Assembly (NCBI RefSeq): GCF_029278565.1
Contig: NZ_CP119559.1
Location: forward strand, 2,542,001-2,606,000
Source of the DNA: Haloarcula halophila
GTDB taxonomy: Archaea > Halobacteriota > Halobacteria > Halobacteriales > Haloarculaceae
Reading direction: 5' to 3'
DNA: 64,000 nt
Shown here: positions 904 through 48,192 of the stretch, piece after piece
How positions within the stretch are numbered: the first letter of the stretch is position 1
Layout of the letters: every line of letters begins with the position of its first letter
Translations under genes and position numbers: made by a program
Notes under the pieces: model-generated
The model's input: the letters and a program-made list of their open reading frames with translations, nothing else
The model's database searches: none
Told to the model about the DNA's origin: nothing

Positions 904-1160
904 CGGCCGACACACGGGAACGGACGCTTCGTCCGCCGCTGACGGTGGGTTCACCCGACACCGATACGCCGACCGGGCTGTCGACACCCTGGAATGAGCC
1001 CTATCGGCTAGCCTGAACTCTCCCGGTGGTGTGAGCGGAGGGTGGTTCGGAGAGGCGACGGCCTCGGCGCAAATCCGAAACGAACCGTCCGTTTACTCGG
1101 TTGTGAGTTACAATGGATTTATGCTCCCTACGCCCACCGGTTCTTGGCGTGGTATAACAT

Positions 1161-2342: not shown

Positions 2343-2401
2343 CGGACTCGAACCTCCGGTTTCCCGACAGCTCTTTATTTGTAACCCGCTAGCACACGCG
2401 T

Positions 2402-2560
2402 ATGTGCCAGTACTGTAGTTTCGCGGACCGCGAGGCCTGGTCGGCCCTGCTCCAGTACGACGAGGTCTACCAGGAAGCCGTCGTCGCGGAGTCGGCGTCG
2501 ACCTACGGGTTCCACGAGGAGTGGGACGAACTGCGCGAGGAAGTCGGGTACGGAGCGTAA
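2402..2560 (+). CDS. Small conserved-looking cysteine protein (52 aa)
   Basis: An ATG at 2402 opens a 52-residue acidic protein beginning MCQYCSFADREAW, with a Cys-x2-Cys pair at residues 2 and 5 and no other cysteines, ending TAA at 2558-2560. An AT-rich box (ctctttatttgtaac) lies about 25 nt upstream of the ATG, as expected for a leaderless haloarchaeal transcript. The gene ends 4 bp before the stop of the convergent CobW-family GTPase. The CxxC pair next to a metal-trafficking GTPase suggests a small metal-binding partner, but this is inference; I do not recognise a named family. Confidence 0.65.
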   Translation: MCQYCSFADREAWSALLQYDEVYQEAVVAESASTYGFHEEWDELREEVGYGA

Positions 2561-2564
2561 CCGT

Positions 2565-3665
2565 CTACTCCCGGGGAAACGGGTCGTCCTCGGCCGACGG
2601 CGGGGCACTCTCCCCGCCCAGACAGGCGTCTAAATCCGCTGTCACCGCGTCTTCGTCGAGGTCCCGGCCGATGACGACGAGCCGCGTCGCGGGGTCGTCC
2701 TCACCCCACTCCCCGATGGGGCCGGCCCTGACCGCGGGTCCGGCCTGGCTGACTCCCAGAACCGTCTCGGGCCGGCTCGTTACCCACACGAACCCCTTGA
2801 GGCGGACGATGTCGCCGTCCCAGGCGTCGAGCCACTCGTCGAACAGTTCGGGATCGAAGGGCCGCTCCCGCCGGTAGACGAACGACCCGACGCCGTGTGC
2901 GGCCGCGGCGGGTTGGTCGCCGTGGTCGTGGCCCGACTCGCTGCCGTCGTCGGTTCCGGCGAGCGCCCGCTTCCACCCCTGGCTCCGCCGGGCGGCGTCG
3001 AAGTCGAACAGTCCGGTCCCGAGCACCGCACCGGGGTCGACCTCGGAGTAGGTCGTCCGGTGGAGCCGTGCTCGCGGCTGGAGTTCGCGGACTGCCGCCT
3101 CGACGGCGTCGAGTTCCTCGTCCGGGACCATATCGCACTTGTTCAACAGGAGCACGTCACAGAACTCGATCTGGTCGACCATCACCTCTGTCAGCGGTCG
3201 CTGTGGGTCGGGTGCGGCCTCGGGCAGCGACTCGCCGGGGTCGAACGCCTTCCAGAAGCCGAACGCGTCGACCACCGAGACGGTCGTATCGAGCCGGAAC
3301 CGGTCGGGCAGGCTCCCCGCGTCGGTCCCGACGGTCAGTGTCCGTGCGATGGGGATCGGTTCGCTGATCCCGGACGCCTCGACGACCAGGTAGTCGAAGG
3401 TCCGCGACTCGGCGAGCCGCGTCACCTCCGTCACGAGGTCGTCCTGGAGCCGGCAGCAGATACACCCGTTCGAGAGGTCGACCACCCCCTCGTCGGTCTC
3501 CTCGGCCAGCAGTTCCGCGTCGACGTTTACCTCCCCCATGTCGTTGACGACGACGGCGACCTGCCGCTCGCCGGGGTCGTTCAGGAGGTTGTTGACCAGT
3601 GTCGTCTTGCCGGCACCGAGCGGACCGCTGATGACCGTCATTGGGATCTCGTGCGTGGAGCTCAC
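2565..3665 (-). CDS. CobW/COG0523-family metal-trafficking GTPase
   Basis: A 366-residue G3E GTPase. The Walker A motif GPLGAGKTT is at residues 14-22, the family metal-binding CxCC motif (C68, C70, C71) follows SNG, and the NKCD base-recognition motif is present. Central Glu/Asp/His-rich stretches (for example SGHDHGDQ) could bind metal. The C-terminal CobW_C domain is present. COG0523 proteins deliver Zn, Co or Fe to client enzymes; which metal is not decidable from sequence. There is no cobalamin gene nearby. It converges on the 52-aa Cys protein and is divergent from the VanZ-like gene at 3769. Confidence 0.85.
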   Translation of the reverse strand: MSSTHEIPMTVISGPLGAGKTTLVNNLLNDPGERQVAVVVNDMGEVNVDAELLAEETDEGVVDLSNGCICCRLQDDLVTEVTRLAESRTFDYLVVEASGISEPIPIARTLTVGTDAGSLPDRFRLDTTVSVVDAFGFWKAFDPGESLPEAAPDPQRPLTEVMVDQIEFCDVLLLNKCDMVPDEELDAVEAAVRELQPRARLHRTTYSEVDPGAVLGTGLFDFDAARRSQGWKRALAGTDDGSESGHDHGDQPAAAAHGVGSFVYRRERPFDPELFDEWLDAWDGDIVRLKGFVWVTSRPETVLGVSQAGPAVRAGPIGEWGEDDPATRLVVIGRDLDEDAVTADLDACLGGESAPPSAEDDPFPRE

Positions 3666-3768
3666 TCTGGTTGTCGACAGGCGTCACGCCGTCTTGAAGC
3701 TTTGTCGGTCCGTTCCCACTGGCTGCCCCGACCGCACGGTTTATGCTGGTGCCTGACGACGCCCACTC

Positions 3769-4131
3769 GTGAACCGACCCCGGCGACTCGTGCCCGTTAC
3801 GGTGGCGCTGCTCGTCCTCCTCGGCTCGCTCGTGCCACTTTCCGGTGGGGCCGGTACCACTGGGCTTCCGTTCGGCCTGGGACTGACCACGCTCGGCCAT
3901 CTCGCCGGCTACGGTGGCCTGACCGTCGCACTCGCGTGGGAACGGCGTGTCAGGGCTGTCGGCCCGCTCGTCGCCGTCGTCGGCGTCGCCGTGGCGTTCG
4001 GCGTGGGAGTCGAACTCCTCCAGTCGCTGGTTCCGACGCGACAACCGAGCGTCGCGGACGCACTCGTCAACGGTATCGGGGCGACGGCGGCGGCAGTCGT
4101 GTGGTCTCTCGGTCGCTCAAACGTCTCTTGA
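3769..4131 (+). CDS. VanZ-like family membrane protein
   Basis: A 120-residue protein with four hydrophobic segments (about residues 7-25, 33-55, 63-83, 95-117). The last part, VELLQSLVPTRQPSVADALVNGIG, matches the VanZ pattern (E...Q...R..S..D...N..G). The start is GTG at 3769, 103 bp from the divergent CobW GTPase. VanZ domains are found in small integral membrane proteins whose biochemical role is mostly unknown; no glycopeptide-resistance function should be read into an archaeal member. Confidence 0.75.
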   Translation: MNRPRRLVPVTVALLVLLGSLVPLSGGAGTTGLPFGLGLTTLGHLAGYGGLTVALAWERRVRAVGPLVAVVGVAVAFGVGVELLQSLVPTRQPSVADALVNGIGATAAAVVWSLGRSNVS

Positions 4132-4172
4132 GCCTCCGGAACGCCCTTTGTGTCGGCCTCTCGACTGCGTGT

Positions 4173-5549
4173 ATGCCGACGAGACGACAGTTCGTCACCG
4201 CAGCCGGATCGGCGCTGGTCGCGCTGGCCGGATGTCCCGAGGGCAACGATACAGACGGCAACCGGCAGACGACGGTCCCGTCGGCCACGGCGACACGCTC
4301 CCGGACCGAGCCAGGAACTGACACCGACAGGGAGACAGCGACGCCGGTGACCGACGAGAGTGATCGCGACTGGGAACCCGACTGGTCGATCGAGACCGGA
4401 GCTGATCACCTCGTCGCGCTGACCCGCGACGGCGAATCCCTCTACGCGACGCTGAGTCACGGGGACAGCTCCGCGATCGCGGCGGTCGATCCCGACGACG
4501 GAGGGTTCGAGTGGCGGACTCCCTTCGAAGGCGACGCGGTTACGAGTAGCCACCTCGACCAGTCCAACGCCCGGGACAAGTGGAGCGTCACCCCTGCCGA
4601 CGGGACGCTGTACGTCGTCACTGGCGCGGTCGACGACTACGAGTGGTCGGCACTGCACGCGGTGGACCCGACGACCGGCGAGGAACTGTGGTCGTTCCGC
4701 CGCGAGCGGGAACTGGCGGTCGCCGGCGTCCGGGACGGAACTGTCGTCGCCGGCGGACTGGAGTTTTTCGTCCCGGACAGCACGCACGACACCCCCGACG
4801 AACCGCTGACCACCGTCGTCTACGGTCTCGACGCCGCGACCGGACAGGTCCGCTGGGAGCGGTCCTACACTGCGGTCTCCGCGGCGACCACGTACGCCGG
4901 GGGCGTCGCGGTCGGGGAGCGCGACCGTATCGTCGGAACTTCCCTCGACGGAACAGAACAGTGGCGCGTCGGGACGGCCCAACCACGCGCGCTGCTCGCG
5001 CTCGACGGATCCGTCGTCGCGGCGGTCGCCGACGGCGACTGGTCGACGATGCGGGCGTTCGACCCCGACGGGACCGAGCGCTGGACGCGCTTTCGCACCG
5101 CCGACTCGTTTCTGGTCCACGACGGGGTGCTGTACGCCCTGGGCGAGTCGACGGGCGCGCTCGCCACCGACGGAACGGTCCGCTGGGAGGCGTCCGGCCA
5201 CGGTCAGTGGCCACTGGTGGCCCCCGACGGGGAGACGCTGTACGCCAGGGCCGGCATCGGGATGGACTCGGTCGACGCGTTCGACCTGACTCGCGGGACG
5301 CGCCGCTTTCGCTACGAGACGCCGTCGAACAACGGGTGGCCGGCCGGTGCGACCGACGGGCTGGTGGTCGCCGAGGCGATCACGCCCGAGGAAGCCGACT
5401 TCACGAGTCTGCTCGCCGTCGACGAGACGACAGGCGAACTGAGGGGCGTGTACCGACCCGCGGATACCGTCTTCGACGTCGCCGGCGTGGGCGAGACCGC
5501 CTACGCTGCCATCGGCGACGAACTGCTGGCCTTTGGCCCACCGGAGTAA
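4173..5549 (+). CDS. Tat-exported lipoprotein with PQQ-type beta-propeller repeats
   Basis: The 458-residue frame is taken from ATG 4173, because the N-terminus MPTRRQFVTAAGSALVALAGC is a twin-arginine signal with an archaeal lipobox (LAGC), giving Cys21 as lipidation site. A Thr/Asp-rich linker follows, then repeated strand patterns of the pyrrolo-quinoline-quinone type (for example AVDPTTGEELWSF, LDAATGQVRWE, DETTGELRGV). Upstream in-frame codons read through the CobW and VanZ region and are not plausible coding. It probably acts at the outer face of the membrane as a scaffold or binding propeller; no catalytic residues were identified. Two more members of this type are at 34382-36794. Confidence 0.8.
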   Translation: MPTRRQFVTAAGSALVALAGCPEGNDTDGNRQTTVPSATATRSRTEPGTDTDRETATPVTDESDRDWEPDWSIETGADHLVALTRDGESLYATLSHGDSSAIAAVDPDDGGFEWRTPFEGDAVTSSHLDQSNARDKWSVTPADGTLYVVTGAVDDYEWSALHAVDPTTGEELWSFRRERELAVAGVRDGTVVAGGLEFFVPDSTHDTPDEPLTTVVYGLDAATGQVRWERSYTAVSAATTYAGGVAVGERDRIVGTSLDGTEQWRVGTAQPRALLALDGSVVAAVADGDWSTMRAFDPDGTERWTRFRTADSFLVHDGVLYALGESTGALATDGTVRWEASGHGQWPLVAPDGETLYARAGIGMDSVDAFDLTRGTRRFRYETPSNNGWPAGATDGLVVAEAITPEEADFTSLLAVDETTGELRGVYRPADTVFDVAGVGETAYAAIGDELLAFGPPE

Positions 5550-5587
5550 CGAAGCCGATATACGCGCCCGTCGGCTATCCCGGTCCA

Positions 5588-6721
5588 ATGAGCAAGCCCA
5601 GTCCCGAAGTCTACGAGCAGGGCAAGGGCATGGACGCCCACAACGCCGTGATGCGGGAGGTTCGGTCGCGCAACGACTCCACCTACGACCCCCGCGAGCC
5701 GACCCGGGTGTGGATCGACGAGGACAACACGCCCGACGGCGTCTACCAGAGCCTGACGATCATCTTGAACACCGGCGGCTGCCGGTGGGCCCGCGCCGGC
5801 GGCTGTACGATGTGTGGCTACGTCGCCGAGAGCGTCGAGGGCGGGAGCGTCGCCCACGAGGACCTCATGGCACAGATCGACCACTGTCTCGACCACGAGG
5901 CCGAGGAGGCCGACGACGAGAGCGGCCTGATCAAGATCTACACGTCGGGGAGCTTCCTCGACGAGCGGGAGGTGCCCGCCGAGACCCGCCAGGCCATCGC
6001 CGAGACGTTCAGCGACCGCGAGCGGATCGTCGTCGAGTCGCTGCCGGACTTCGTCGAGGACGAGCGGGTGAGCGACTTCGTCGACGTGGGCCTAGAGACC
6101 GACGTGGCGGTCGGCCTGGAGACCGCGACCGACCGCGTACGCCACGACTGCGTGAACAAGTACTTCGACTTCGCGGACTTCGAGGAGGCCTGTCGGGCCG
6201 CACAGGAGGCCGGTGCCGGCGTCAAAGCCTACCTCCTCATGAAGCCGCCGTTCCTCTCCGAGCGGGAGGCACTCGACGACATGATCGCCTCGGTCCGCCG
6301 GTGTGCCGGTGTCGAGGGCTGTCACACCGTCTCGATGAACCCCTGTAACGTCCAGCGGTACACGATGGTCGAGGAGCTGTACCACGACGGCGGCTACCGC
6401 CCGCCGTGGCTCTGGTCGGTCGCCGAGGTGCTGAAAGAGACCGCAGACATCTCCGGGAGCGAAGCGACCGGAGGCTCGTCAGACGAGCAAAGCGAGTCTG
6501 ACGGTGAGGACGTCATCGTCGTCTCCGATCCCGTGGGCCACGGCAGCGACCGCGGCCCGCACAACTGCGGGGAGTGTGACGACCGGGTCCAGCGCGCGAT
6601 CAAGGACTTCGACCTGCGACAGGACCCCAGCGTCTTCGAGCAGGTCGAGTGTGAGTGCGAGGCGACCTGGGAGGCCGTCCTGGAACGGGAGCGCAGTTAC
6701 TCGCTGCCGTTGGCGCGGTAA
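5588..6721 (+). CDS. raSEA: Archaeosine biosynthesis radical SAM protein RaSEA
   Basis: A 377-residue radical SAM protein. The [4Fe-4S] cysteines are C65, C73 and C76, a C-x7-C-x2-C spacing rather than the classic C-x3-C-x2-C. The sequence around them (NTGGCRWARAGGCTMCGY) is that of the RaSEA family. Near the C-terminus are CGEC and CEC pairs that may bind a second metal or cluster. RaSEA converts the ArcS product (preQ0-lysine adduct on G15 of tRNA) to archaeosine. Its partner arcS ends at 903. The ATG at 5588 is 38 bp after the preceding propeller gene. Confidence 0.88.
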   Translation: MSKPSPEVYEQGKGMDAHNAVMREVRSRNDSTYDPREPTRVWIDEDNTPDGVYQSLTIILNTGGCRWARAGGCTMCGYVAESVEGGSVAHEDLMAQIDHCLDHEAEEADDESGLIKIYTSGSFLDEREVPAETRQAIAETFSDRERIVVESLPDFVEDERVSDFVDVGLETDVAVGLETATDRVRHDCVNKYFDFADFEEACRAAQEAGAGVKAYLLMKPPFLSEREALDDMIASVRRCAGVEGCHTVSMNPCNVQRYTMVEELYHDGGYRPPWLWSVAEVLKETADISGSEATGGSSDEQSESDGEDVIVVSDPVGHGSDRGPHNCGECDDRVQRAIKDFDLRQDPSVFEQVECECEATWEAVLERERSYSLPLAR

Positions 6722-6743
6722 CGGGCTTTTGCGGTCGCGGTGG

Positions 6744-7376
6744 CTACGTCCGTCCCGTCGTCGCTAGCCGGACGACCCGTCCGAGCGCCACCCAGGCGAC
6801 GCCGAACGGGAGAAACAGCGCGGACGTTCGAACGACGGCCATCCGTACAGGTAGCGGGAGTATCGCTCCGGCCAGAACGACCAGGACCGGCACGACCGGG
6901 GCCAGGAGACACACCGCTACCGTGACGGCCGGCGGGTCGGGACGCCGATGGAGGACGACACCGATCAGCCCGGTCCCACTCAGTGCCAGCGCGTAGCCGG
7001 TGATCGCCAGCCACGTACGGACGAGCCCGGCGGGGTCTTCGCCAGTGGCGGGGACCGGAGTGAACCCGGCAGCGACGTAGGCGGCTACCGACTCGGCCGC
7101 GAGCACTCCCAGACAGCACAGGCCCAGCCCCGTCGCGCCGAGCGCGACTCGACCTGTCCGCTCGGGGCGATCGAAGACCGTGGAGAGGCCCGCGACACCA
7201 CCCAGGAGGAGTCCGAGTCCCAGCAGGGACCCGATATCGTAGACGGTCCCCACGTACGGGCGTGTCCCGAACGCCGCGAACTGGAGCCAGGGCATCGCCG
7301 TCCAGCAGACGGCACCGACTGCGGCCCCGACCCCGCTCCAGGCGACCGCCCGCCTTCGCTTCGGTGAGGGTTCCAT
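6744..7376 (-). CDS. DUF998-like integral membrane protein
   Basis: About 210 residues with six predicted transmembrane segments, starting MEPSPKRRRAVAW (positive N-terminal patch) and containing the first-helix pattern WTAMPWLQFAAFGTRPY typical of haloarchaeal DUF998-type proteins. I chose the ATG at 7376; the frame continues upstream to another ATG at 7448, but the added 24 residues (HRERFAVGERRS and so on) are not membrane-like. Function is unknown. It is convergent with RaSEA, separated by 22 bp. Confidence 0.7.
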   Translation of the reverse strand: MEPSPKRRRAVAWSGVGAAVGAVCWTAMPWLQFAAFGTRPYVGTVYDIGSLLGLGLLLGGVAGLSTVFDRPERTGRVALGATGLGLCCLGVLAAESVAAYVAAGFTPVPATGEDPAGLVRTWLAITGYALALSGTGLIGVVLHRRPDPPAVTVAVCLLAPVVPVLVVLAGAILPLPVRMAVVRTSALFLPFGVAWVALGRVVRLATTGRT

Positions 7377-7794
7377 ACTGGACCGTCTCTCCCCCACCGC
7401 AAAACGCTCGCGGTGGCACCACTGGCCTCCGACAGCGAACCAGGACACTCCCCGCTGGCACTTTCACTTTCACTCCGGTAGGGTGGCTCTTATTATCGTG
7501 GCCTGCTTACTAGTCGATAGGGGCCGCCGGAACCTGTCACACGCTCCAGCGACCCCACCCTTTCCCTTTGGACACGTCCACTGGTAGTGATTGTTCGGTC
7601 TGTTTCGGATCGACTGCACGAGAGCGTGCGGTCGTCCCGGTACATCGCTACAATACTCCTGTGAGAGAAGCCACGTACCGACGGTTCTGGACCGACGACG
7701 GACTCGTCGGTCGAACCGGAACTTCGATCGCTACGAGACGCCGGCTGTCCGTGTCGTGGACGCCGATCGGTCCACTTCGGTAGACTGTCCGCCG
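7377..7794. other. Intergenic, 418 bp, no gene seen
   Basis: It lies between two minus-strand genes (purQ and the DUF998-like gene). Short frames present here have haloarchaeal shadow composition (Arg-rich) and no recognisable family. An AT-rich tract at about 7490-7515 (ttattatcg, tactagtcga) and a tandem actttcactttcact near 7465 are visible; the former could hold a promoter for the DUF998-like gene. Confidence 0.5.
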
Positions 7795-8469
7795 CTACTG
7801 AGCGAACCCTTCGAGGACGCCCTCGCCGTCGGTCCGACCCAGGTCTTCCAGCGAGGCCCGCTCGGGGTGGGGCATCATCACCGCGATGTGGTCGTCCTCG
7901 CCGACGATGCCGGCGACGTTGTGTTTCGAGCCGTTGGGGTTGGCTTCGGGCGTGACGGCACCGTCCTCGTCGCAGTATTTGAACAGGACGCGGTCCTCGG
8001 CCTCCAACTCGTCCAGGCGCTCGTCGTCGATCTCGTAGCGCCCCTCGCCGTGGGCGATGGGGAGTTCGACGACGTCGCCCGCCTCGTAGTGGCTCGTCCA
8101 GGGTGTCTCGGCGTTCTCGACCCGGAGGTAGACGTGTTCACACTGGAAGCGGGCGCTCTCGTTCGTCGTGAACGCACCGGGAGTGAGGGCGGACTCACAG
8201 CCGATCTGGGCACCGTTACAGACGCCGAGCACCGGCGTTCCGTCGGCGGCCGCCGCGCGGATGTCCGCCATGACCGGCGAGCGAGCGGCCATCGCGCCGG
8301 CCCGGAGGTAGTCGCCGTAGGAGAACCCGCCGGGCAGCATGATACCGTCGACGTCCGAAGGGAGGCCGTCCTCGTGCCAGACGAGTTCGGCGTCGAACCC
8401 CAGCGATTCCAGCGCCTGGACGGAGTCGCGGTCGCAGTTCGAACCGCCGAATTGGATGACTGCGATCAT
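7795..8469 (-). CDS. purQ: Phosphoribosylformylglycinamidine synthase, glutaminase subunit PurQ
   Basis: A 224-residue class I glutamine amidotransferase. The nucleophile is C84 in LGVCNGAQIG; the His-Glu pair is in MMPHPERA near the C-terminus. N-terminal IQFGGSNCDRD is typical of PurQ. It releases ammonia from glutamine for the PurL-catalysed conversion of FGAR to FGAM in purine synthesis. It overlaps the upstream purS by 4 nt (ATGA), implying translational coupling. PurL itself is not in the window. Confidence 0.93.
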   Translation of the reverse strand: MIAVIQFGGSNCDRDSVQALESLGFDAELVWHEDGLPSDVDGIMLPGGFSYGDYLRAGAMAARSPVMADIRAAAADGTPVLGVCNGAQIGCESALTPGAFTTNESARFQCEHVYLRVENAETPWTSHYEAGDVVELPIAHGEGRYEIDDERLDELEAEDRVLFKYCDEDGAVTPEANPNGSKHNVAGIVGEDDHIAVMMPHPERASLEDLGRTDGEGVLEGFAQ

Positions 8470-8720
8470 GCTGTCTCGGTCACGTCGACCTCGTAGTCGT
8501 GGATGGTCGGGTTCGCCAGGAGCCGTTCGGCCATCTCCTCGGCGCGGTCGCCGGCGTCCGCGGCGCTGTCGGCGTCGAGGTCGAGTTCGAAGACGTCGGC
8601 CGAACGCAGGTCCGACAGCTCGAACCCGAGCCGTTCGAGGGCCTGCTGTGTCGTTTCGGCTTCGGGATCGAGGACGCCCCGCTTGAGCCGGACCGTGACG
8701 GTGGCAGTGTAGGCGGTCAT
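8466..8720 (-). CDS. purS: Phosphoribosylformylglycinamidine synthase subunit PurS
   Basis: An 84-residue protein (ATG at 8720) with the PurS pattern: TATVTVRLKRGVLDPEAETT, then ALERLGFE, and LLANPTIHDYEVDV at the end. PurS bridges PurL and PurQ in the archaeal/Gram-positive type FGAM synthase complex. The stop codon overlaps the purQ start by 4 nt. The alternative upstream start at 8780 adds residues with no family similarity. Confidence 0.92.
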   Translation of the reverse strand: MTAYTATVTVRLKRGVLDPEAETTQQALERLGFELSDLRSADVFELDLDADSAADAGDRAEEMAERLLANPTIHDYEVDVTETA

Positions 8721-8761
8721 TAGTGGCAACGGTGCGGTCGGCGGAGAAAACGCTTGTGTTC

Positions 8762-9412
8762 TCAGTCTACGGCCGTCCATTCCGTCGGCTGGTCGGGGAG
8801 GCCGCTGACCCGGATCTCCTGGCCGGTCCCGGACTCCCGGAGGTCGATCCGGCCGTCGAACGCCTGTGCGATGCTACCCAGAACGCGGTCGTCGTGTGCT
8901 CTGGGGTCGATGACACAGACACCGAGCCCGTCGGCGGTCCGGATTCGACTCGTCACGGTGTTGATAAACCGGTAGACCGGCCGGACGTCGTCGCTGTAGA
9001 CCAGCAGCGGCGTTAGGGTGTAGATCCCCGTCCGGACGGCGTCGAACCCCCGGGCGTACACCTGCTCGTACTGTCCGGCGTACTCGATCCCGATCCCGGT
9101 GAGGTCGGCGGGCGTTCCGACGGAGGAGACGAACTCGCCGAGGTCGTCGCTGCTGTCCCCCGCACAGTCGACGACGCGGACCCGGCCGTTCGAGAGATCC
9201 TCACCCGTCCGGTCGATGCCGGCAAGCAGCTCCCGTGCACTCACGTCGGCGGCGATGAGCACGATCCCGTCGCCCCTGTCCGCGGTCAGCAGCTCCAGCG
9301 CGAACCGCCGTGTCCCGCCCAGTATCGGTCCGGCGACCAGGAGGCTCGTCCCGGGCTCCACCGGCGCTATCGGGAGGTCGCCGAAGCCGTACTGTCTGTC
9401 GAGTTGTTCCAT
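8762..9412 (-). CDS. RecA-fold (KaiC-like) protein with degenerate P-loop
   Basis: A 216-residue protein with a single RecA/KaiC-type core: a P-loop position AGPILGGTRRFAL at residues 32-44, strand VLIAADVSAREL, and later TLTPLLVYSDDVRPVYRFINTV and VIDPRAHDD, the pattern of haloarchaeal regulatory RecA-fold proteins (DUF7504-like, from memory). The P-loop lacks the GK[ST] lysine, so ATP hydrolysis is doubtful. Its ATG is one nucleotide after the stop of the pseudo-receiver/GAF gene, so the two are co-translated and probably work together in signalling. The role is inferred. Confidence 0.7.
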   Translation of the reverse strand: MEQLDRQYGFGDLPIAPVEPGTSLLVAGPILGGTRRFALELLTADRGDGIVLIAADVSARELLAGIDRTGEDLSNGRVRVVDCAGDSSDDLGEFVSSVGTPADLTGIGIEYAGQYEQVYARGFDAVRTGIYTLTPLLVYSDDVRPVYRFINTVTSRIRTADGLGVCVIDPRAHDDRVLGSIAQAFDGRIDLRESGTGQEIRVSGLPDQPTEWTAVD

Positions 9413-9413
9413 C

Positions 9414-10322
9414 TCATTCCACCCCGTCAGATAGTCGTTTCCGCAACCGCAGTTGCTCCTGCACTTCGTCGGCGAACCGACGGAGGTCCTCGCGCTCGGC
9501 ACGGCTGTACGAGCGTGGCTCGTCGTCGATACAACAGACCGCTCCCAACGCGTTCCCCGCCTCGTCGGTGATCCGTGCGCCGGCGTAGGACCTGATGTCC
9601 AGTTCGTCGAGTCGGTCGACGGCCGAGAACCGCGGGTCCTCGTGGACGTCCTCGACGACCAGCACCTCGTCTGTCAGGATCGTGTGGGTACAGATCGTGT
9701 CTTCGCGGGCCAGGGTCGGCCAGTTGGCGCCGACACAGGCGATGAACCGTTCCTCGTGGGCGTCGACCAGGCCGATGAAGGCGACGTTGATGTCGAAGTG
9801 GTTCGCGATCAGCGTCGTCAGCCGATGGAACGTCGCTTCCGCACCGAGTTCGTCGATGTCGTACTCGCCGACGGCGGCGAGCCGTTCGGTCTCGTCGGCC
9901 GGAATTGGATACGCCGCTTGGCTGGACGACCGAACGGCGTTTCCGACGACATCGACCAACCGCTCGCGGGCGTTCGGGACAGTCTGTGGGACGTACTCGA
10001 CGATCTGGTCCGGCCGCTCTCGCGGAAGGTCCGAGGGGGAGTCGGCGGTAAACAGCACACAGACGCAGTCGGGATTCGAGGTCCGCACCGCGTCGACGGC
10101 GTCGAACGCGTCGCCGTCCGGGAACGTCGTCGCAGTCACGACACAGTCCGTGTCGGCAGTGACGGTCGTCTCGATATCGGCTATCGAACCGACCGAACCG
10201 ACAGCCAGTCCGGCGGCTTCCAGTGCGTCGACTGTTGCCGACCGTTCGCTCGCGTCGGGGTCGGCAACGACGACAGCCGGCGAATCCACAGTCACACCGT
10301 CACACTCACTCTCTACCCTCAT
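9414..10322 (-). CDS. Pseudo-receiver plus GAF domain signalling protein
   Basis: A 302-residue protein from ATG 10322. Residues about 18-130 have the receiver fold pattern (AVVVADPDASERS acid pocket, EYVPQTVPNARERL end), but the strand that should carry the phospho-acceptor Asp reads CVVTATTFPDGD, with no Asp at the site. Residues about 160-295 are a GAF domain (ANHFDINVAFIGLVDAHEERF, CTHTILTDEVLVVEDV, YAGARITDEAGNALGAVCCID). This GAF type is common in haloarchaeal sensory regulators and may bind a small ligand. It is translationally linked to the RecA-fold gene downstream. The upstream extension to 10841 overlaps purU and is rejected. Confidence 0.75.
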   Translation of the reverse strand: MRVESECDGVTVDSPAVVVADPDASERSATVDALEAAGLAVGSVGSIADIETTVTADTDCVVTATTFPDGDAFDAVDAVRTSNPDCVCVLFTADSPSDLPRERPDQIVEYVPQTVPNARERLVDVVGNAVRSSSQAAYPIPADETERLAAVGEYDIDELGAEATFHRLTTLIANHFDINVAFIGLVDAHEERFIACVGANWPTLAREDTICTHTILTDEVLVVEDVHEDPRFSAVDRLDELDIRSYAGARITDEAGNALGAVCCIDDEPRSYSRAEREDLRRFADEVQEQLRLRKRLSDGVE

Positions 10323-10387
10323 AGATGTGACGCCCTGATCGACGGAAAACGAAGGCTTTTGCACTATCCCGGTCCAACGGCGGAGCA

Positions 10388-10420
10388 ATGAGCGTACGTA
10401 CCCGACGGTGGTGGCCGTGA
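10388..10420 (+). other. Possible 10-codon leader ORF overlapping the purU start
   Basis: ATG 10388 opens MSVRTRRWWP and stops at TGA 10418-10420, overlapping the purU GTG start at 10417 (GTGA). The ATG lies 25 nt after a TTTTGC box (10357-10362), the same spacing seen for cofH and cofG, so a transcript could begin here. It may be a leader peptide or simply chance. Confidence 0.3.
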
Positions 10421-11391
10421 CCCGCGGTCTCACCGAGATCACGGTCGTCGGCGACGACGATACCGGTCTCATCGCCGAGGTGACCAGCCTGCTGTTCGAA
10501 CGCAGCATCAACATCGAAGACCTCGACCAGGCCGTCCGGGACGGAGTCTTCCGGATGACGATGCACGTCGACACCAGTGGGATGGTGACGACCGAGGAGA
10601 CACTCCGCGAGGACCTGACGGAACTGGGCGAGAAACTCGGCGTCGACCTCCAGGTCCGGTTCCCCGCCGACCGCGAGACCCAGTCCATCGCCGTCCTCGT
10701 GACCAAGGAGTCACACTGTCTCGAAGCCCTCTTCGAGGCCTGGGCCAACGGGGACCTCGGTGCCGACATCGAGGTCGTCATCGGGAACCACAGCGACCTC
10801 CAACCCCTGGCCGAGAAGTACGACGTTCCCTTCCACGACATCGGCGACGAGAAGGGGACGCCCGACGAGGACCAGTTGCTGGACCTGCTTGCGAGCTACG
10901 ACGCCGACCTCATCGTGCTGGCCCGCTACATGCGCATCCTCTCGCCGGACGTCGTCTTCCGCTACGAGAGCCGGATCATCAACGTCCACCCGAGCCTGCT
11001 GCCCGCCTTCCCCGGCGGGTCGGCGTACATGCAGGCCATCGAGGAAGGCGTTCGCATCGCCGGGGTCACCGCACACTACGTGACGACGGACCTCGACCAG
11101 GGACCGATCATCACCCAGCGGGCGTTCAACGTGCCCGACGAGGCCACCGAGGAGGACCTCCAGCAGATGGGCCAGCCGCTCGAAGCCGACGCGTTGCTGG
11201 AGGCGATCCGGCTGCACCTCAACGACGAGGTCACCGTCCACCGCGGTCGGACGAAACTCCGCGACGACGAGGTCGATGCCCAACTGGGCGCTCCGACGGA
11301 CCTCAACGAACTCAATCCCGACCGTCCGATCGACGGATTGGGGGAGTTCGTCGCCGAGGAGGACGGACCCGAAACCGAGGCCGACGACTAG
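10417..11391 (+). CDS. purU: Formyltetrahydrofolate deformylase PurU
   Basis: About 324 residues. The N-terminal ACT domain (LTEITVVGDDDTGLIAEVT) is followed by a formyltransferase-fold domain with INVHPSLLPAFPGG (catalytic Asn/His region) and DLDQGPII (catalytic Asp region). It hydrolyses 10-formyl-THF to formate and THF; in archaea with formate-using PurT-type steps this can feed purine synthesis, which fits the neighbours purS/Q and purC. There is no ATG in frame; GTG codons at 10408, 10411 and 10417 are possible starts. I chose 10417 because homologues begin near TRGLTEIT and because of the GTGA overlap with the mini-ORF. The C-terminal 40 residues are acidic. Confidence 0.87.
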   Translation: MTRGLTEITVVGDDDTGLIAEVTSLLFERSINIEDLDQAVRDGVFRMTMHVDTSGMVTTEETLREDLTELGEKLGVDLQVRFPADRETQSIAVLVTKESHCLEALFEAWANGDLGADIEVVIGNHSDLQPLAEKYDVPFHDIGDEKGTPDEDQLLDLLASYDADLIVLARYMRILSPDVVFRYESRIINVHPSLLPAFPGGSAYMQAIEEGVRIAGVTAHYVTTDLDQGPIITQRAFNVPDEATEEDLQQMGQPLEADALLEAIRLHLNDEVTVHRGRTKLRDDEVDAQLGAPTDLNELNPDRPIDGLGEFVAEEDGPETEADD

Positions 11392-11505
11392 ACGTTCCGG
11401 GGTTTTCCGAGAACTACCGAAACCGATCGTCTCAGTCGCTCTGTCTTCACCTTCTCGTCGCGCCCCGGTCCGAAGACGACGGTGACGAGACGGGGGACTT
11501 CCGAC

Positions 11506-12540
11506 TCAGAGGTCCCGGACGGCGTCGATCGCGGCCTCCAGCGATGGCGCGTCGAAGACGTTCCCGTCCACGTAGGCGTTCGTCCCGGCACAGTAGAGGT
11601 CGCCCATCGCGTCGATCACCGACCGGTCGAGCGGTTCGGGCGACCGTTCACAGAGCGATTTCCAGTCGGCGACCCCTTCCTCGGTGGCTCGCTGTTTGGC
11701 CTCGCTCACCGCCTCGACCCACTCGGGCTGGGTCCGCTTGTGGTACTGGCGGATGACCTCCTTCGAGACCTGCTGGCCGTCGGCCGAAAAGCGGTTCTCG
11801 TCGAAGGTCCCCACCACGTCGGCGATGCGGATCTGGCCGCCGTGGTAGAGACACTCGATCTTGCCGTCCTCGTGGACCAGGCCGGCGTCATCGGCCTGTC
11901 CGGTGACGATGTGGTTGACCGCCCGAGCGAGTTCCTCCAGCCGGTCGACGTCGGCGACGCCGGCGATCCGGTCGGCCTCCTCGCGGTCGAGGTACCGGTC
12001 CTGTTCCTCGTATTTCGTCGAGAACTCGACGACCGGCGTCTCCAGGTCGACCGGTTCCGCTGGCCACTCCGCGGCGTCGAGGCCGTGGTCGGCTGGGTCG
12101 GTCCGGGACCGTAGCGAGGAGCCGACCGGCACGCGGTTCCGGAAGACGATCTCCAGGGGAATCAGGTAGTTCTCGCCGGCGTCGGCGTGGTAGGCGTCGT
12201 AGTCGTAGGCCCCGTCGACGAAGGGGAGCTCGGGCACCTGCGTCAACGAGATGACCATCTCCTCGGGTGCGGTGCCGGTCGAGAGCGCCTCGCCGAGGTC
12301 GACGGTCTCGTCGTGATCGGGAAGACGGACGCCCTCGTAGTGTGTCGGGATGTGGTTCTCCTCTAGCAGTTGGAAGTTGAACGCCCCCATCGTACACAGC
12401 GAGGCCCCTTTCTCCGGAATCCGGTCGGGCATCTTCCCCCAGTCGAACACCGAGTAGTCGTCGGTGAACACGAAGGCCCCGCGGCCCAGTTCCTCGGCCG
12501 TGGCAGGTTCGTCGATACGGAAATCCTTGACGCTCGTCAT
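11506..12540 (-). CDS. purC: Phosphoribosylaminoimidazole-succinocarboxamide synthase PurC
   Basis: A 344-residue SAICAR synthetase from ATG 12540 ([21 protein letters not shown]). Family features seen are [26 protein letters not shown], the [16 protein letters not shown] region, and the catalytic/ATP region [15 protein letters not shown]. It is longer than bacterial PurC (about 240 aa), as is usual in haloarchaea. It joins aspartate to CAIR in an ATP-dependent step of purine synthesis. It is convergent with purU, 114 bp apart, and 36 bp downstream of nadE on the same strand. Confidence 0.9.
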
Positions 12541-23519: not shown

Positions 23520-24032
23520 CTACAGCGGCGTCCCGCCGCGGGTCCCCTCGCTCCCGCCGGTACTCGCCGAATCCATCAGATCGGCGACGACGCCGACGTA
23601 GTCGTAGCCGGGGACGATCCCCTCGACGTAGGTCCCCTCGACGTACTCGACGAAGGTCTTGGCCACGTCGGCCGCCTGGGACTCGCTGCCCAGACTGAAC
23701 CGGAAGGTGACGACGACCTCCTCGCCGTCGCGTTCGACGGTGTACTCGTCCAGTTCTACCGAGACACGCGTTGCCTTGGGCGCGTCTTCGAGCCGGCGCT
23801 GCAGGGTCTCGAACCAGCCGTCGGCGACGGCCTCGCCCACCTCGTCGGCGGTCGCGGCCTGGAGCGTCGGCGCTCGGACGGTCACCTCGTACTCCGTCTC
23901 CCATCTCTCTCCCTCGCTGGCGGTCACGTACCCGTCGAACCGCGTCGAGTCGACGGCGTACCCCTCTTGGCCGGCGACGAACGCGTCCCGGCGGTCGAAG
24001 GTATCAGCTACGTCGCTGGGTACATCGGTCAT
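23520..24032 (-). CDS. Haloarchaeal protein of unknown function (DUF5813-like)
   Basis: A 170-residue acidic soluble protein (MTDVPSDVADTFDRRDAF). The middle YEVTVRAPTLQAATADEVG and ELDEYTVERDGEEVVVTFRF alternate in beta-strand fashion. I recall haloarchaeal proteins of this kind as DUF5813, but the assignment is from memory. No signal peptide, membrane helix or catalytic motif. It is convergent with the RAM/hairpin element. Confidence 0.65.
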   Translation of the reverse strand: MTDVPSDVADTFDRRDAFVAGQEGYAVDSTRFDGYVTASEGERWETEYEVTVRAPTLQAATADEVGEAVADGWFETLQRRLEDAPKATRVSVELDEYTVERDGEEVVVTFRFSLGSESQAADVAKTFVEYVEGTYVEGIVPGYDYVGVVADLMDSASTGGSEGTRGGTPL

Positions 24033-24466
24033 TGGCCATCTCTAGGCCGTTACGCCGGAAAAACGCGTCGTATCTCGGAGTGGATGGAATTCTCACTCGA
24101 TGCCGGACGCTCGCTCACTCCGTTCGCGCTGCGTCTGCCGTGATTCGAACCGCCATCGATTCGATTTTCACGCCTCTCACGTCCGTTCGAGTCGGAAAAT
24201 GGAAGTGATCGGCCTGTTGGAACCCTCAACACCTGCTGAAACCGGCGTGCGAGATACAGAGCGTCTAGGCATCACAACGGCTCAATTCTGCCAGCTGTTT
24301 TCGCGCTCAGATGCCCCACCGTTTTGGGATCTCATTCCGAGTTCTCGGTAGTACCCTGCGTGTAGGGCAATCATCCCCGGTAGACGGGGAACAGGACAGT
24401 GCTAACAGTTTCACTTCCGGTCCGGTCAGCGTAGATATTTTTCTCCGACGGAACGAGTTACCGCTC
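24033..24466. other. Intergenic, 434 bp, carrying the left repeat of a possible relic
   Basis: It contains the left 53-bp direct repeat (24089-24141) and, near 24374-24390, a perfect small hairpin TCCCCG-GTAGA-CGGGGA. AT-rich gtagatatttttc at 24431-24443 precedes the HD gene and could be its promoter. No coding frame of recognisable family is present; short Arg-rich frames are shadows. Confidence 0.5.
24089..24141 (+). repeat. 53-bp direct repeat, left copy
   Basis: It starts ATTCTCACTCGATGCC and runs through gctcgctcactccgttcgcg to CTGCCGT. The right copy is at 25324-25376, differing at one position (G at 24105, A at 25340). The pair brackets the HD-domain gene. Both copies are preceded by a GGATGG[AG]-type sequence resembling the T-arm end of the neighbouring tRNA-Leu. 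Confidence 0.8.
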
Positions 24467-25081
24467 ATGCCGACCGACGATCTCATCAAAGAGTTGCGAG
24501 CGCGTGTGAAGACTGCCGCACATAGTGAGACAAACGTATTCGGGCCTGGGATCTGGAAACACCACATTCTACGGGTAGTGGATAACGCACAGCAACTCGC
24601 CGCCGAGCTTGACGCCGACCACAAGACGGTTACTATCGCTGCTCTTTTGCACGATTATGCCTCGCTGATCGATCCGGAATATATCGACGAACACCACGAA
24701 CACGGTGCCCGGATTGCAGAGGAGACACTCGAAAACCGAATCACGGAGCCACGACTCGCGACAGTGAAACGGTGTATCAGAGCGCATCGTGCCAGTAGTG
24801 GCCCGTCCCCGGAGTCACCAGCGGCACACTGCGTCGCAAGTGGGGATGGGATGGCACACATTCAGGCGGTCCCCTCGTTGCTACGAGCGGCCTACGTCAA
24901 CCGGGAAATGTCCGTGGAAGACGGGGCTGGGTGGGTCAACACCAAGATAGAACGTAGCTGGGAGAAACTTCATCCCGTTGCGGCTGAGGCCGTTCGTGAG
25001 GAGTATCACGCCGCGAGGACGGTTTTAGACGGTGATTGGTCGTTTGACGGCAGCAGCGCAGTCGCGTTTCGTGATCACTGA
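24467..25081 (+). CDS. HD-domain phosphohydrolase-like protein
   Basis: 204 residues from ATG 24467. Metal ligands of the HD superfamily are visible: H32/H33 (WKHHILRVVDNA), H62-D63 (ALLHDYASL), a further His cluster DEHHEHGARIA, and a later RCIRAHR helix. HD proteins hydrolyse phosphate esters or nucleotides; the substrate here is unknown. Base composition appears less GC-rich than the neighbours and the gene is bracketed by 53-bp direct repeats beside a tRNA gene, which suggests acquisition by transfer. An in-frame extension to 24311 lacks HD-family character. Confidence 0.75.
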   Translation: MPTDDLIKELRARVKTAAHSETNVFGPGIWKHHILRVVDNAQQLAAELDADHKTVTIAALLHDYASLIDPEYIDEHHEHGARIAEETLENRITEPRLATVKRCIRAHRASSGPSPESPAAHCVASGDGMAHIQAVPSLLRAAYVNREMSVEDGAGWVNTKIERSWEKLHPVAAEAVREEYHAARTVLDGDWSFDGSSAVAFRDH

Positions 25082-25312
25082 TTCGACTCCCCGACCTGGG
25101 TACGCTGTCGTCGTCGATAGAGAGGGTTCGCTGAGTAGCGGACGGATGGGCCGACTGACTGGTATCGACTCGCAATCCGGGTAGCGGGTTCGCCTCTTTC
25201 GTTTGAATACGTCTACCGGGGTGCCGGTCAACTCGGCCAACGCTGCTGTATACGCGCCCTCTGTTCAGCACGACCGCTGAAAACTGTCACTTACCGAAGG
25301 TCTCAACGAGAC

Positions 25313-25327
25313 CGAGGGATGGGATTC
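25313..25327 (-). other. 15-nt duplicate of the tRNA-Leu 3' end
   Basis: CGAGGGATGGGATTC here is identical to 25431-25445 in the 3' acceptor/T-arm of tRNA-Leu, in the same orientation and 118 bp downstream of it. Such duplications mark integrase attachment sites, but the short spacing and absence of an integrase make this only a candidate remnant. Confidence 0.45.
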
Positions 25328-25376
25328 TCACTCGATGCCAGACGCTCGCTCACTCCGTTCGCGCTGCGTCTGCCGT
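25324..25376 (+). repeat. 53-bp direct repeat, right copy
   Basis: 52 of 53 positions are identical to 24089-24141, 1,235 bp away. It is followed by GTTCGAATCCC-like sequence (25378-25388), again resembling tRNA T-arm sequence. Confidence 0.8.
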
Positions 25377-25428
25377 AGTTCGAATCCCAACAGTCGAATT
25401 TACGGCTCACGACATGTTCGCCGCAAAA

Positions 25429-25513
25429 TGCGAGGGATGGGATTCGAACCCATGGACCCCTACGGGAGCGGGTCTTAAGCCCACCGCCTTTGGCCAAGCT
25501 CGGCTACCCTCGC
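25429..25513 (-). tRNA. tRNA-Leu (anticodon UAA)
   Basis: On the minus strand the gene begins GCGAGGGTAGCCGAGC and ends CCCATCCCTCGC plus discriminator A; acceptor arms pair fully (GCGAGGG/CCCTCGC). The anticodon loop CTTAAGA gives anticodon TAA. A long variable arm (gctcccgtaggggtcc region) is as expected for class II leucine tRNA, and the T-loop is GGTTCGAATCC. CCA is not encoded and there is no intron. Confidence 0.95.
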
Positions 25514-25553
25514 GCACTCACCTCTCTACGTCCCTCGGGAAAACGGGTTTCGA

Positions 25554-25895
25554 TTACCAGTCGACGGAGAGCGTCCCGTCTCCGTTGGGGTCGGGGGCGA
25601 TCTCCTCGTTCGTGCGGCGGTCGACGACGTGGATGACCCCGCGGTCTTTCTTGGCGGGACAGGCTTCCGCGGCGGCGACGTTGTGATCGAGGTCTGCCTC
25701 GTCGATGTAGTACGTCTCGGGTTTGGCGATGCCGGTGTCGAGGTCCAGCGACCACGTCCCGGAGACCTCGGCGCACTTGCCCGCGCCGAAGCACTTGTTG
25801 GCCTCGAAGATGATCTTGTAGGGCTTGTCTTCGATCGACGGGGCGTCGCTCGTTCCGATATCGCTCGGATCGACCGGTTCGTCCGGGTCAGTCAT
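25554..25895 (-). CDS. Ferredoxin with three-cysteine cluster motif
   Basis: 113 residues from ATG 25895. Cluster ligands C35, C41 (CFGAGKC) and C79 (EACPAKK) are the only cysteines, a pattern of single-cluster [3Fe-4S] or Fer4_15-type ferredoxins that serve as small electron carriers, for instance to P450s. A cytochrome P450 is encoded at 39425 but no functional link is shown. The acidic N-terminus (DPDEPVDPSDIG) and C-terminal extension are halophilic features. It is 40 bp from the tRNA-Leu 5' end. Confidence 0.8.
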   Translation of the reverse strand: MTDPDEPVDPSDIGTSDAPSIEDKPYKIIFEANKCFGAGKCAEVSGTWSLDLDTGIAKPETYYIDEADLDHNVAAAEACPAKKDRGVIHVVDRRTNEEIAPDPNGDGTLSVDW

Positions 25896-45667: not shown

Positions 45668-48192
45668 GCCTCCCGCCCTCGATCGACATCGACCGAGGTC
45701 TCCCCGACGAGGCGTCGGTCCGGGAGACGCTGGCCGACCGGACGCTGACGAAACTGGGCGACGACGAACGACTCGAACGCCTCCACCGGGTGTTCTACCC
45801 GGCGTTCCGAGTCGAGTACACCTACGAGACCGGCGAGGGGAAACTGTTCGGGACAGAGCGCCGGCACGCGAGCGCGCTGCTGGACGGGCTCTGGGCCGAC
45901 AACGACCGTGCGCTCTCACAGTACGCCGACAGCGCGGAGCACGTGAGCGGACTGTCGACCGACGGCTTCGACTTCGGCACCGATACGCCGTCGCTGGGTC
46001 GATCGGTCCTGTTGCAGTTCCAGGGGACCACCGACGACGCGGCGTCGATCCTCCCCAGTCGGCTCACCGAGTACCGGGAACAGAACGCCGGGACGGCCAA
46101 CGTCTTCCTGCGGAAGCTCCGGGAGGCCTACGGGCTCCCCGGGGATTTCGACCCCGACGGGTTCGAGGGCGTCCAGTCGGTCAAACGGGTCTATCTCCCC
46201 TTCTGGCTGGCGGAGTTTCACGCTCCCCATACCGAGGACGTCGTGATGGTCTCGTTCCGCGATCCCGGTGTCGATACAGACGAACTTCGCCGGCACGCCT
46301 GGCTGGCCGAGTACGTCAGCGCGGACCCGCGTCGGCTGGCGACCTACGGCTACGAGGTCGACCCCGACCGGCTCGAACGTGACATCCGCGAGCGCGTCGA
46401 GGAGGCCGAGGAGGAGCGGCGACCGGACGGGCGAGACCGTCCCGAGAACGAGCCAGACGGCGCTCCGACGATCAACCGCGAGCGCCCGTCCGACGACGAT
46501 ACCGTGGTCCAGCCCGACGGCGTCGAGATGGACGCCGACTCGCTGGTCGATCCCGATCCGGAACGGAGCTTCGCCGACGTCGGCGGGATGAGCGAACTCC
46601 TGGAGACGCTGAACCACAAGGTCACCCGCCCGCTCCAGAACCCCGAGGCGTTCGAGGAATACGGCATCGGCGTCGTCAACGGCGTCCTGTTACACGGGCC
46701 GCCGGGCTGTGGGAAGACCCACGTCGCAGGTGCGCTCGCCGGCGAGATCGACCACAGCTTCGTCGAGGTCACGCCGGCGGACGTGACCAGCAAGTACATG
46801 GGCGAACCCGCGAAGAAGATCGAGGAACTGTTCGAGATCGCGCGGGCCAACGCGCCGTGTGTCCTCTTTATCGACGAGATCGACGGTATCGCCAGTTCCC
46901 GGAGCGGCGAGGGCAACATGAACGCCAGCGAGCAACAGCTCGTCAACCAGCTGCTGACCGAACTGGAGGAGATCGCCGAGGAGGACGTGGTCGTGGTGGC
47001 CGCGACGAACCTCGTCGAGGACGTCGACGACGCGATCCGCCGGTCGGGTCGGTTCGACGAGCGGGTCGAGGTGCCGCCGCCGGACGCCGACGCACGGCGG
47101 CAGATCCTGTCGATCCACCTGGCCGGCCGGCCCACCGCCGACGATCTCTCGCTGGACACTGTCGTCGAGGAGACGGCCGGGTTCGCGGCCAGCGACCTCG
47201 AACTCATCGCCGAGAACGCGGCCCGCGAGGCGTTACGCGAGGACGCCCCGATCCGTACTGACCACCTCATGACCGTCGTCGAGGAGTCCGAGACGAGTAT
47301 CGAAGACTGGGTCGATCCCGAAGACGTCGCCGTCGACGGTGTCGTCCAGCCCGACGGCGTCGACCTGCAGGCCTCCACGCTGGTCGAGACTGATCCCGGC
47401 CGGGACTTCGCCGATGTCGGTGGGATGGACGACCTGAAACAGCGACTGGACGATACCGTCATCGACCCGCTCCAGAACGCCGAGGCCTACGCCGAGTACG
47501 GCATCGACGTGCTCTCCGGGTTGCTCCTCTACGGGCCACCGGGCTGTGGGAAGACTCACCTGGCGGGGGCGCTCGCGGGAGAACTCGATCACAGTTTCGT
47601 CGAGATCACGCCCGCGGACATCGCCAGCAAGTGGATGGGAGAACCGGCACAGAACGTCGCCGAGGTGTTCGAGATCGCGCGGGCTAACGCGCCGTGTGTC
47701 CTCTTCATCGACGAGATCGACGGCATCGCCGGCTCGCGACACGGCTCGATGAACACCAGCGAGCAACAGCTTGTCAACCAACTGCTGACCGAACTGGAGG
47801 GCGCTTCCGAGGACGACGTCGTCGTGGTGGCCGCGACGAACTTCGTCGAGGACATCGACGGTGCGCTTCGTCGGTCGGGCCGGTTCGACGAGCGGGTCGA
47901 AGTGCCCCCGCCCGACGCCGAGGCCCGCCGACAGATCCTGGAGATCCACCTGGAAGACCGGCCGATCACCGAGGGGATCGACTGGGCGCCGATCGTCGAG
48001 CACACCGAGGGGTACGCCGCCAGTGACCTCGAACTTCTCGCGGAGGACGCGGCACGCGAGGCGCTCCGTGACGGTTCGGACCTCGCACAGGAACACTTAG
48101 AGACCGCGGTCTGGGAGACACACTCCAGTATCGAGAACTGGGAGGGCCGGGACCGGTACGCTCAGGCCGACGGGACGACGGCGCTGGACTGA
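45664..48192 (+). CDS. Double AAA ATPase (CDC48-like) with unusual N-terminal domain
   Basis: 842 residues. Residues 1-230 form a domain not resembling the CDC48 N-domain, with aromatic-rich motifs (RVEYTYETGEGKLFGTERRH, VYLPFWLAEFHAPH). Two tandem AAA modules follow: Walker A GPPGCGKTH at about 345 and 624 (Cys instead of the common Thr), Walker B LFIDEIDG, sensor AATN, and Arg-finger RRSGRFDERVEVPPPDA in both. Both pore loops have K-[YW]-MGEPA. It is probably an unfoldase or remodelling ATPase whose N-domain chooses the client. It overlaps the CoA-synthesis gene by 4 nt, implying co-translation. Confidence 0.85.
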   Translation: MSLPPSIDIDRGLPDEASVRETLADRTLTKLGDDERLERLHRVFYPAFRVEYTYETGEGKLFGTERRHASALLDGLWADNDRALSQYADSAEHVSGLSTDGFDFGTDTPSLGRSVLLQFQGTTDDAASILPSRLTEYREQNAGTANVFLRKLREAYGLPGDFDPDGFEGVQSVKRVYLPFWLAEFHAPHTEDVVMVSFRDPGVDTDELRRHAWLAEYVSADPRRLATYGYEVDPDRLERDIRERVEEAEEERRPDGRDRPENEPDGAPTINRERPSDDDTVVQPDGVEMDADSLVDPDPERSFADVGGMSELLETLNHKVTRPLQNPEAFEEYGIGVVNGVLLHGPPGCGKTHVAGALAGEIDHSFVEVTPADVTSKYMGEPAKKIEELFEIARANAPCVLFIDEIDGIASSRSGEGNMNASEQQLVNQLLTELEEIAEEDVVVVAATNLVEDVDDAIRRSGRFDERVEVPPPDADARRQILSIHLAGRPTADDLSLDTVVEETAGFAASDLELIAENAAREALREDAPIRTDHLMTVVEESETSIEDWVDPEDVAVDGVVQPDGVDLQASTLVETDPGRDFADVGGMDDLKQRLDDTVIDPLQNAEAYAEYGIDVLSGLLLYGPPGCGKTHLAGALAGELDHSFVEITPADIASKWMGEPAQNVAEVFEIARANAPCVLFIDEIDGIAGSRHGSMNTSEQQLVNQLLTELEGASEDDVVVVAATNFVEDIDGALRRSGRFDERVEVPPPDAEARRQILEIHLEDRPITEGIDWAPIVEHTEGYAASDLELLAEDAAREALRDGSDLAQEHLETAVWETHSSIENWEGRDRYAQADGTTALD

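Follow-up and report, generated by a model that had tools for sequence, protein, structure and literature searches.

The locus lies in a window of 64,000 nt from Haloarcula halophila (the whole stretch of DNA analysed), where a tRNA-Leu(TAA) gene is followed by two related hairpin units and by an inserted segment that carries a gene for an HD-domain protein. The features, in window coordinates and in the order in which they follow the tRNA gene, are listed below; R1 is a covariance model of hairpin 2 built from 17 sequences.

25429-25513, minus strand: tRNA-Leu(TAA), source of the downstream 3'-end copy (ARAGORN; Rfam RF00005, 53.3 bits)
25313-25428, minus strand: unit 1, 116 nt, hairpin 1 followed by hairpin 2, with the tRNA-end copy last (fold; R1 67.5 bits, unit 1 being part of the R1 training set)
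25399-25428, minus strand: hairpin 1 of unit 1, with stem, GA/GA tandem, 2 bp and loop
25313-25390, minus strand: hairpin 2 of unit 1, with inverted T-arm, variable stem, GA-AC-GGA-GT-GA apex and tRNA-end copy
25313-25327, minus strand: 15-nt copy of the tRNA-Leu end in unit 1, whose last two bases (CA) now lie at 24200-24201, beyond the insertion
24202-25312, no strand assigned: inserted segment, 1,111 bp, 57.2% GC, with the HD gene; the junction is restored on its removal
25250-25305, plus strand: stretch near one end of the HD segment, common to contig C4 (77%, 56 nt)
24467-25081, plus strand: HD-domain protein, 204 aa from the ATG at 24467; an in-frame upstream ATG at 24311 is possible
24246-24281, plus strand: stretch close to the opposite end of the HD segment, common to contig C4 (86%, 36 nt)
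24077-24199, minus strand: unit 2, hairpins 1 and 2 with a decayed tRNA-end copy (R1 48.2 bits at 24075-24160)

Repeats and inserted segment at the tRNA-Leu(TAA) gene

A preliminary description of this DNA had reported two 53-bp direct repeats (24089-24141 and 25324-25376) around the HD gene, next to the tRNA gene. Their location and their identity of 52/53 hold, the single-base difference falling in the core, and the pair stretches to 68 nt at 94% identity (24082-24149 and 25317-25384, repeat family D10 of the window). The left 53-mer is the hairpin-2 part of unit 2 and the right one lies inside hairpin 2 of unit 1. It was likewise correct that the 15-nt tRNA-Leu end CGAGGGATGGGATTC at 25313-25327 exactly equals 25431-25445. 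What the description missed is that the repeat extends into a structured unit, that units of this type recur after many other tRNAs, and that the copies are older than the HD segment.

The inverted T-arm of unit 1 reads TTGGGATTCGAA on the tRNA strand. Unit 1 folds with a z-score of -3.87 (0/200 shuffles equally stable); taken alone, unit 2 folds more weakly (z -1.57, 15/200). The usual kink-turn motif has a 3-nt bulge, which the GA/GA tandem of hairpin 1 does not have; this hairpin may still be a kink-turn.

The segment between the repeats had been described as lower in GC, and it is (57.2% against 66.6% for the window). Excision of 24202-25312 joins CCCTCG of unit 1 to CATTTTCCGACTCG of unit 2, and the rejoined 43-nt junction is found in three relatives (43/43 in G020, 42/43 in G013 and G001). 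Because this junction exists intact in a relative, the tandem units came first and the 1,111-bp HD segment later. The segment entered within the tRNA-end copy of unit 1. A direct repeat of the tRNA end is present at both borders of the units and is absent from the left edge of the HD segment, where no core duplication is visible. Integration of the HD segment as the source of the repeats is excluded, since excising it restores a natural junction. The earlier proposal of integration at a tRNA 3' end thus stands in one part, as the HD segment did come in by insertion. It finds no support in the other, that the borders of this insertion are the two 53-bp copies and the duplicated tRNA end.

The main ORF of the segment encodes the HD protein (Pfam E 3.5e-9; PF01966, TIGR00277). 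HD is a general hydrolase domain; we treat the protein as putative cargo. Its best listed relative among 146 genomes of the family, in G065, shares 46% identity and the remaining listed matches at most 42%. The protein is absent from 20/20 orthologous tRNA-Leu loci searched, so that the HD gene is not common to the relatives compared. Apart from the two short stretches common to contig C4, which flank other ORFs there and whose start points are separated by about 580 bp, the HD segment has no similarity outside the units elsewhere in its own genome. Contig C4 also contains a 12-kb stretch repeated at 99.9% (1-12000 and ~92556-104563; L203, L204), probably a circular overlap from assembly.

A unit family at haloarchaeal tRNA genes

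The units form a widespread haloarchaeal family of about 110 bp, located directly after tRNA genes. A genome-wide search with the 53-mer returned two strong copies and one 34-bp partial copy (88%) beside tRNA-Leu(GAG). The repeat had alternatively been viewed as a dispersed haloarchaeal sequence: the family is indeed dispersed, but its places are tRNA 3' ends and it does not occupy hundreds of unlinked places. A random dispersed repeat is excluded, as the copies sit at tRNA ends.

Model R1 has 13 matches in the genome at E<1e-3, and 11 of them are on the same strand as a tRNA gene and no more than about 300 nt downstream of it. The tRNAs concerned are Leu (TAG twice, TAA, GAG), Arg(CCG), Thr(GGT), Met(CAT), Gly(GCC) twice, Val(CAC) and Lys(CTT); the remaining two are unit 2, which the insert has displaced, and a match inside the tRNA cluster of contig C3. 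Independently of the model, a copy of the tRNA's own 24-nt end (score of at least 28) occurs within 250 nt downstream of 15/41 chromosomal tRNAs (65 rows minus 24 from the C3 cluster) and upstream of 0/41. When tRNA ends were compared with the flanks of other tRNAs (C3 included), the 99th percentile of the score was 34; 13 of the 15 copies score at least 34.

Across the class Halobacteria R1 matches are present in 192/194 genomes (E<=0.01). In a draw of 196 genomes from the phylum (E<=1e-4) they occur in 35 of the 40 that belong to the order of the window, and the 156 others have no match, 15 of these being listed individually and 141 presumed to lie outside the order from the list sequence; this draw thus yielded no conservation of the units in other archaea of the phylum. 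One exact core pattern was found at nine places in named records (Halorhabdus, Halosimplex, Natronomonas and uncultured Halobacteriales), eight of them directly beside Glu, Gly or Leu tRNAs. Among 60 fetched match regions, two (L224, L227) lack a tRNA inside a radius of about 1 kb. Searches of plasmid and phage records yielded no units, and neither did those of IMG/VR viral contigs by two exact core patterns.

Rfam 15 returned for window positions 23900-25700 (E<=10) only the tRNA and one sub-threshold match over it, and at the gathering score nine loci gave tRNA only. The literature searched, which leaves out most subscription journals, contains no description of such units, and the family is apparently undescribed.

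Two other tRNA arrangements were seen in this genome. On the secondary contig C3 (237543-242356; L201) about 20 tRNA genes lie clustered in what looks like a tRNA array of virus or plasmid type. Around C1:508169 (L028), body pieces and the end of tRNA-Leu(CAA) recur downstream with a spacing of 229 bp, unlike the hairpin units.

Architecture of the units and fit to the local tRNA

The units follow one plan: hairpin 1 comes first, then the T-arm in inverted form, then an inner stem that varies, and last a copy of the neighbouring tRNA from position ~52 to ~73. We delimited 155 units from 188 tRNA contexts; 149 of them measure 90-175 nt, mostly 100-125 (three were dropped by length, and 28 of the remaining 152 have no readable arm pair). 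An enlarged set holds 169 units of 60-200 nt (three of 172 dropped by length) at 116/181 contexts, with one, two and three units at 75, 29 and 12 tRNAs respectively. In both sets the contexts come largely from model matches and are a biased sample. For the 151/169 units that could be anchored (18 could not), identity between copy and tRNA is at least 90% from about position 53 to position 73, then drops to 58% and to 47%; the 5' edge of the copy is partly set by detection with the last 22 nt, and the 3' edge is independent of the method.

The left arm fits the T-loop and T-stem of the local tRNA. Among 124 readable units, T-loop base 57 and the opposed arm base form A-T in 58, G-C in 56, A-C in 5 and G-T in 2, and the copy differs from the tRNA in 3. 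Ranked by the whole left arm, the own tRNA type comes first of 22 in 20/152 units, and the acceptor-side half of the arm matches other tRNAs as well as it matches the local one. Such arm fitting could arise without selection, through templated correction of imperfect palindromes.

The apex pairs covary (G..C 59, A..T 42, A..C 5, G..T 2, counted over 453,092 bases of partly overlapping fetched loci), and the loops are mainly GNA, a loop type that is very stable in DNA. Within 163 distinct units the apex GA-RC-GNA-GY-GA occurs 98 times in sense and 0 times in antisense, and the sense strand (the tRNA strand) is the more stable one in 125 of the 163. RNAalifold retains only six pairs in the full unit alignment, with no covariation term; a separate set of pair counts is based on our own structure and alignment A2, for which a +1 slide had more both-side cells (20 vs 14). 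The strand specificity of the hairpins and the fit of their arms suggest that the folded single strand, DNA or RNA, matters.

A functional RNA is one candidate for that strand. The units would then be produced together with the tRNA, as 3' trailers or as small RNAs. Hairpin 1 would be a GA tandem of kink-loop-like form that binds a protein, and hairpin 2 a mimic of the tRNA end processed at the same 3' end. The constant placement of the units on the tRNA strand, the sense-only apex with its strong covariation and the greater stability of the sense strand are all in its favour. RNA helices tolerate G-U, yet G-T does not clearly exceed A-C: where a helix was required the counts are 5 to 13 in inner stems and 16 to 7 in hairpin 1, against 8 to 0 in the tRNA acceptor-stem control. 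A looser count gives 19 to 23 for inner stems (first five pairs) and 32 to 14 for hairpin 1 (six pairs). For the inner stem this comparison tends to disfavour RNA, which it does not do for hairpin 1. As the number of units at one tRNA varies from 0 to 3 within a genus and no Rfam family is matched, we consider the RNA reading possible, though rather unlikely.

Some tRNA ends carry variants of this plan. Small palindromes are nested in the tRNA-end copies of L286 (G055) and L290 (G032), which suggests that still smaller hairpin elements insert there, and three identical tandem 72-bp units without hairpin 1 follow tRNA-Leu(TAG) at L283 (G173).

Turnover, integrative elements and a proposed origin

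Orthologous tRNA-Leu(TAA) loci hold 0-3 units, with at least one in 17/31. G031 and G003, sisters in the DUF5813 tree, are distinguished at this locus by one exact unit of 107 bp, their flanks being identical at 243/260 bases. Five congeners that form one clade of that tree (L103, L108, L109, L112, L280) have an altered T-arm, CGTTCRAATCGCG, in tRNA-Leu(TAA), and all are without units. The array of G145 has near-identical units at places 1 and 3 with a different unit between them. Deletion from older arrays accounts for much of the variation inside the genus; recent gain is a candidate.

Similar cores also recur at different tRNAs, with 62 cross-tRNA core pairs scoring at least 80. The unit of L251, at Val(TAC), and that of L137, at Leu(TAA), for example, have the core CCTATCAGTCGCGCGCAGCGAAGCGAGCACGTCTGATTTCGG in common, and the arm base changes with the tRNA. 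Gene conversion could be an alternative source of this similarity.

A link to an integrative element was seen once. L207, in G157, is a 4.9-kb element at tRNA-Glu whose 197-bp ends, 97.5% identical, consist of the 3' part of the tRNA and one unit. In this single element a 294-aa ORF has the integrase domains PF00589/PF13495, with scores below the Pfam cut-offs; other ORFs carry DUF302, SHOCT and DUF5615. In G020 a different cargo lies beyond unit 2, within the third unit of the Leu array. The integrase neighbourhoods of the window's own genome showed no far border with a tRNA end and a unit.

The ends of L207 would also suit units that are ordinary scars, each left by a different conventional island at the tRNA, of which tRNA-end duplicates are the classic signature. 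Unrelated islands would not be expected to leave a uniform length and a two-hairpin plan at many tRNA types and families, and this origin appears decidedly unlikely. A host could otherwise keep the units as decoys, spare tRNA ends that divert integrating elements from the tRNA itself: at tRNA-Leu(TAA) both cargoes inspected (the HD segment of the window and that of G020) sit within the array rather than at the tRNA. The cases number two, a tRNA is normally restored when an element integrates there and has little need of protection, the L207 element sits with its unit at the tRNA itself, and 26/41 chromosomal tRNAs have no copy of their own end. We regard decoys as very unlikely.

The best explanation, to which we give an even chance, is that the units are recombining, integrase-linked attachment modules at tRNA ends, moved by a putative recombinase, and that they would act as DNA or as RNA. 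Small attachment-site modules of integrative elements would be inserted by a tyrosine recombinase acting at the T-arm. The inserted module would supply a working tRNA 3' end and the old end, displaced, would become the right arm of the unit; under this proposal the copies stop at the last tRNA base because entry of the module displaces the old tRNA end. Repeated insertion, together with recombination between the 17-22-bp copies, would make arrays grow and shrink between 0 and 3 units, and loss by recombination between direct repeats has been described in Haloquadratum (PMC3119063). The substrate may be a folded single strand, and the direction, gain or loss, is likewise presumed. At a later time the separate 1,111-bp HD insertion in unit 1 split the array of the window (tRNA, unit 1, unit 2).

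Several known systems resemble the units in part. SMR-A of Haloquadratum walsbyi is about 110 bp long, with prominent inverted repeats, no transposase, unexplained mobility and a preference for palindromic targets (PMC3119063). These targets are the terminal palindromes of IS605/PATE elements, and the passages on SMR-A make no mention of tRNA targeting (PMC3119063). Length and inverted arms are alike, but the arms of the units fit the local tRNA and a 17-22-nt target copy is present, whereas SMR-A is defined by having no target duplication; the units are set apart from SMR-A by that description. In SNJ2-type archaeal elements with tyrosine recombinases, which target tRNAs, the tRNA 3' end recurs as a short direct repeat (PMC8371274). 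The tRNA-end repeat is similar, but what is repeated here is a two-hairpin module of about 110 bp, mostly without cargo or integrase. Casposons at tRNA-Leu combine insertion at the tRNA 3' end, target duplication and tandem forms, and in Methanosarcina mazei the duplication comprises the last 4 bp of the tRNA and 10 bp beyond (PMC6977970, PMC10359463). That of the units covers the final ~17-22 bp of the tRNA and goes no further, unlike the casposon span.

Integron attC sites are imperfect palindromes with conserved ends and a variable middle, which occur in tandem arrays and in gene-carrying and empty forms. The units too are imperfect palindromes with conserved ends and a variable middle, but they target the tRNA T-arm, and the HD gene is not a cassette with its own site. 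That Halobacteria carry an integron-like system at tRNAs, with the T-arm as primary site, units as attC-like sites recombined through the folded tRNA-sense strand, occasional gene cargo and the match between arm and T-arm picking the tRNA, seems to us unlikely.

The unit is nearly universal in the haloarchaeal genomes examined; it adjoins tRNA genes, and its shape suits each of them. Should it be a recombination module, as we favour, it would represent a class-wide route of DNA capture in archaea and help to account for the role of tRNA ends as integration hot spots; should it be an RNA, it would found a new family of RNAs linked to tRNAs. Either reading is open to test, since genetic work is feasible in some haloarchaea. 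Meanwhile, not every tRNA-end copy should be taken for the border of an island.

Two further observations concern the surroundings of the locus. In four congeners (L104-L107) about 8 kb separate the 5' side of tRNA-Leu(TAA) from a ferredoxin-like gene that is adjacent to it in the window. At window positions 46491-47972 two long direct-repeat pairs (300 nt at 74% and 224 nt at 85%) with a spacing of about 830 bp resemble a tandem gene duplication.
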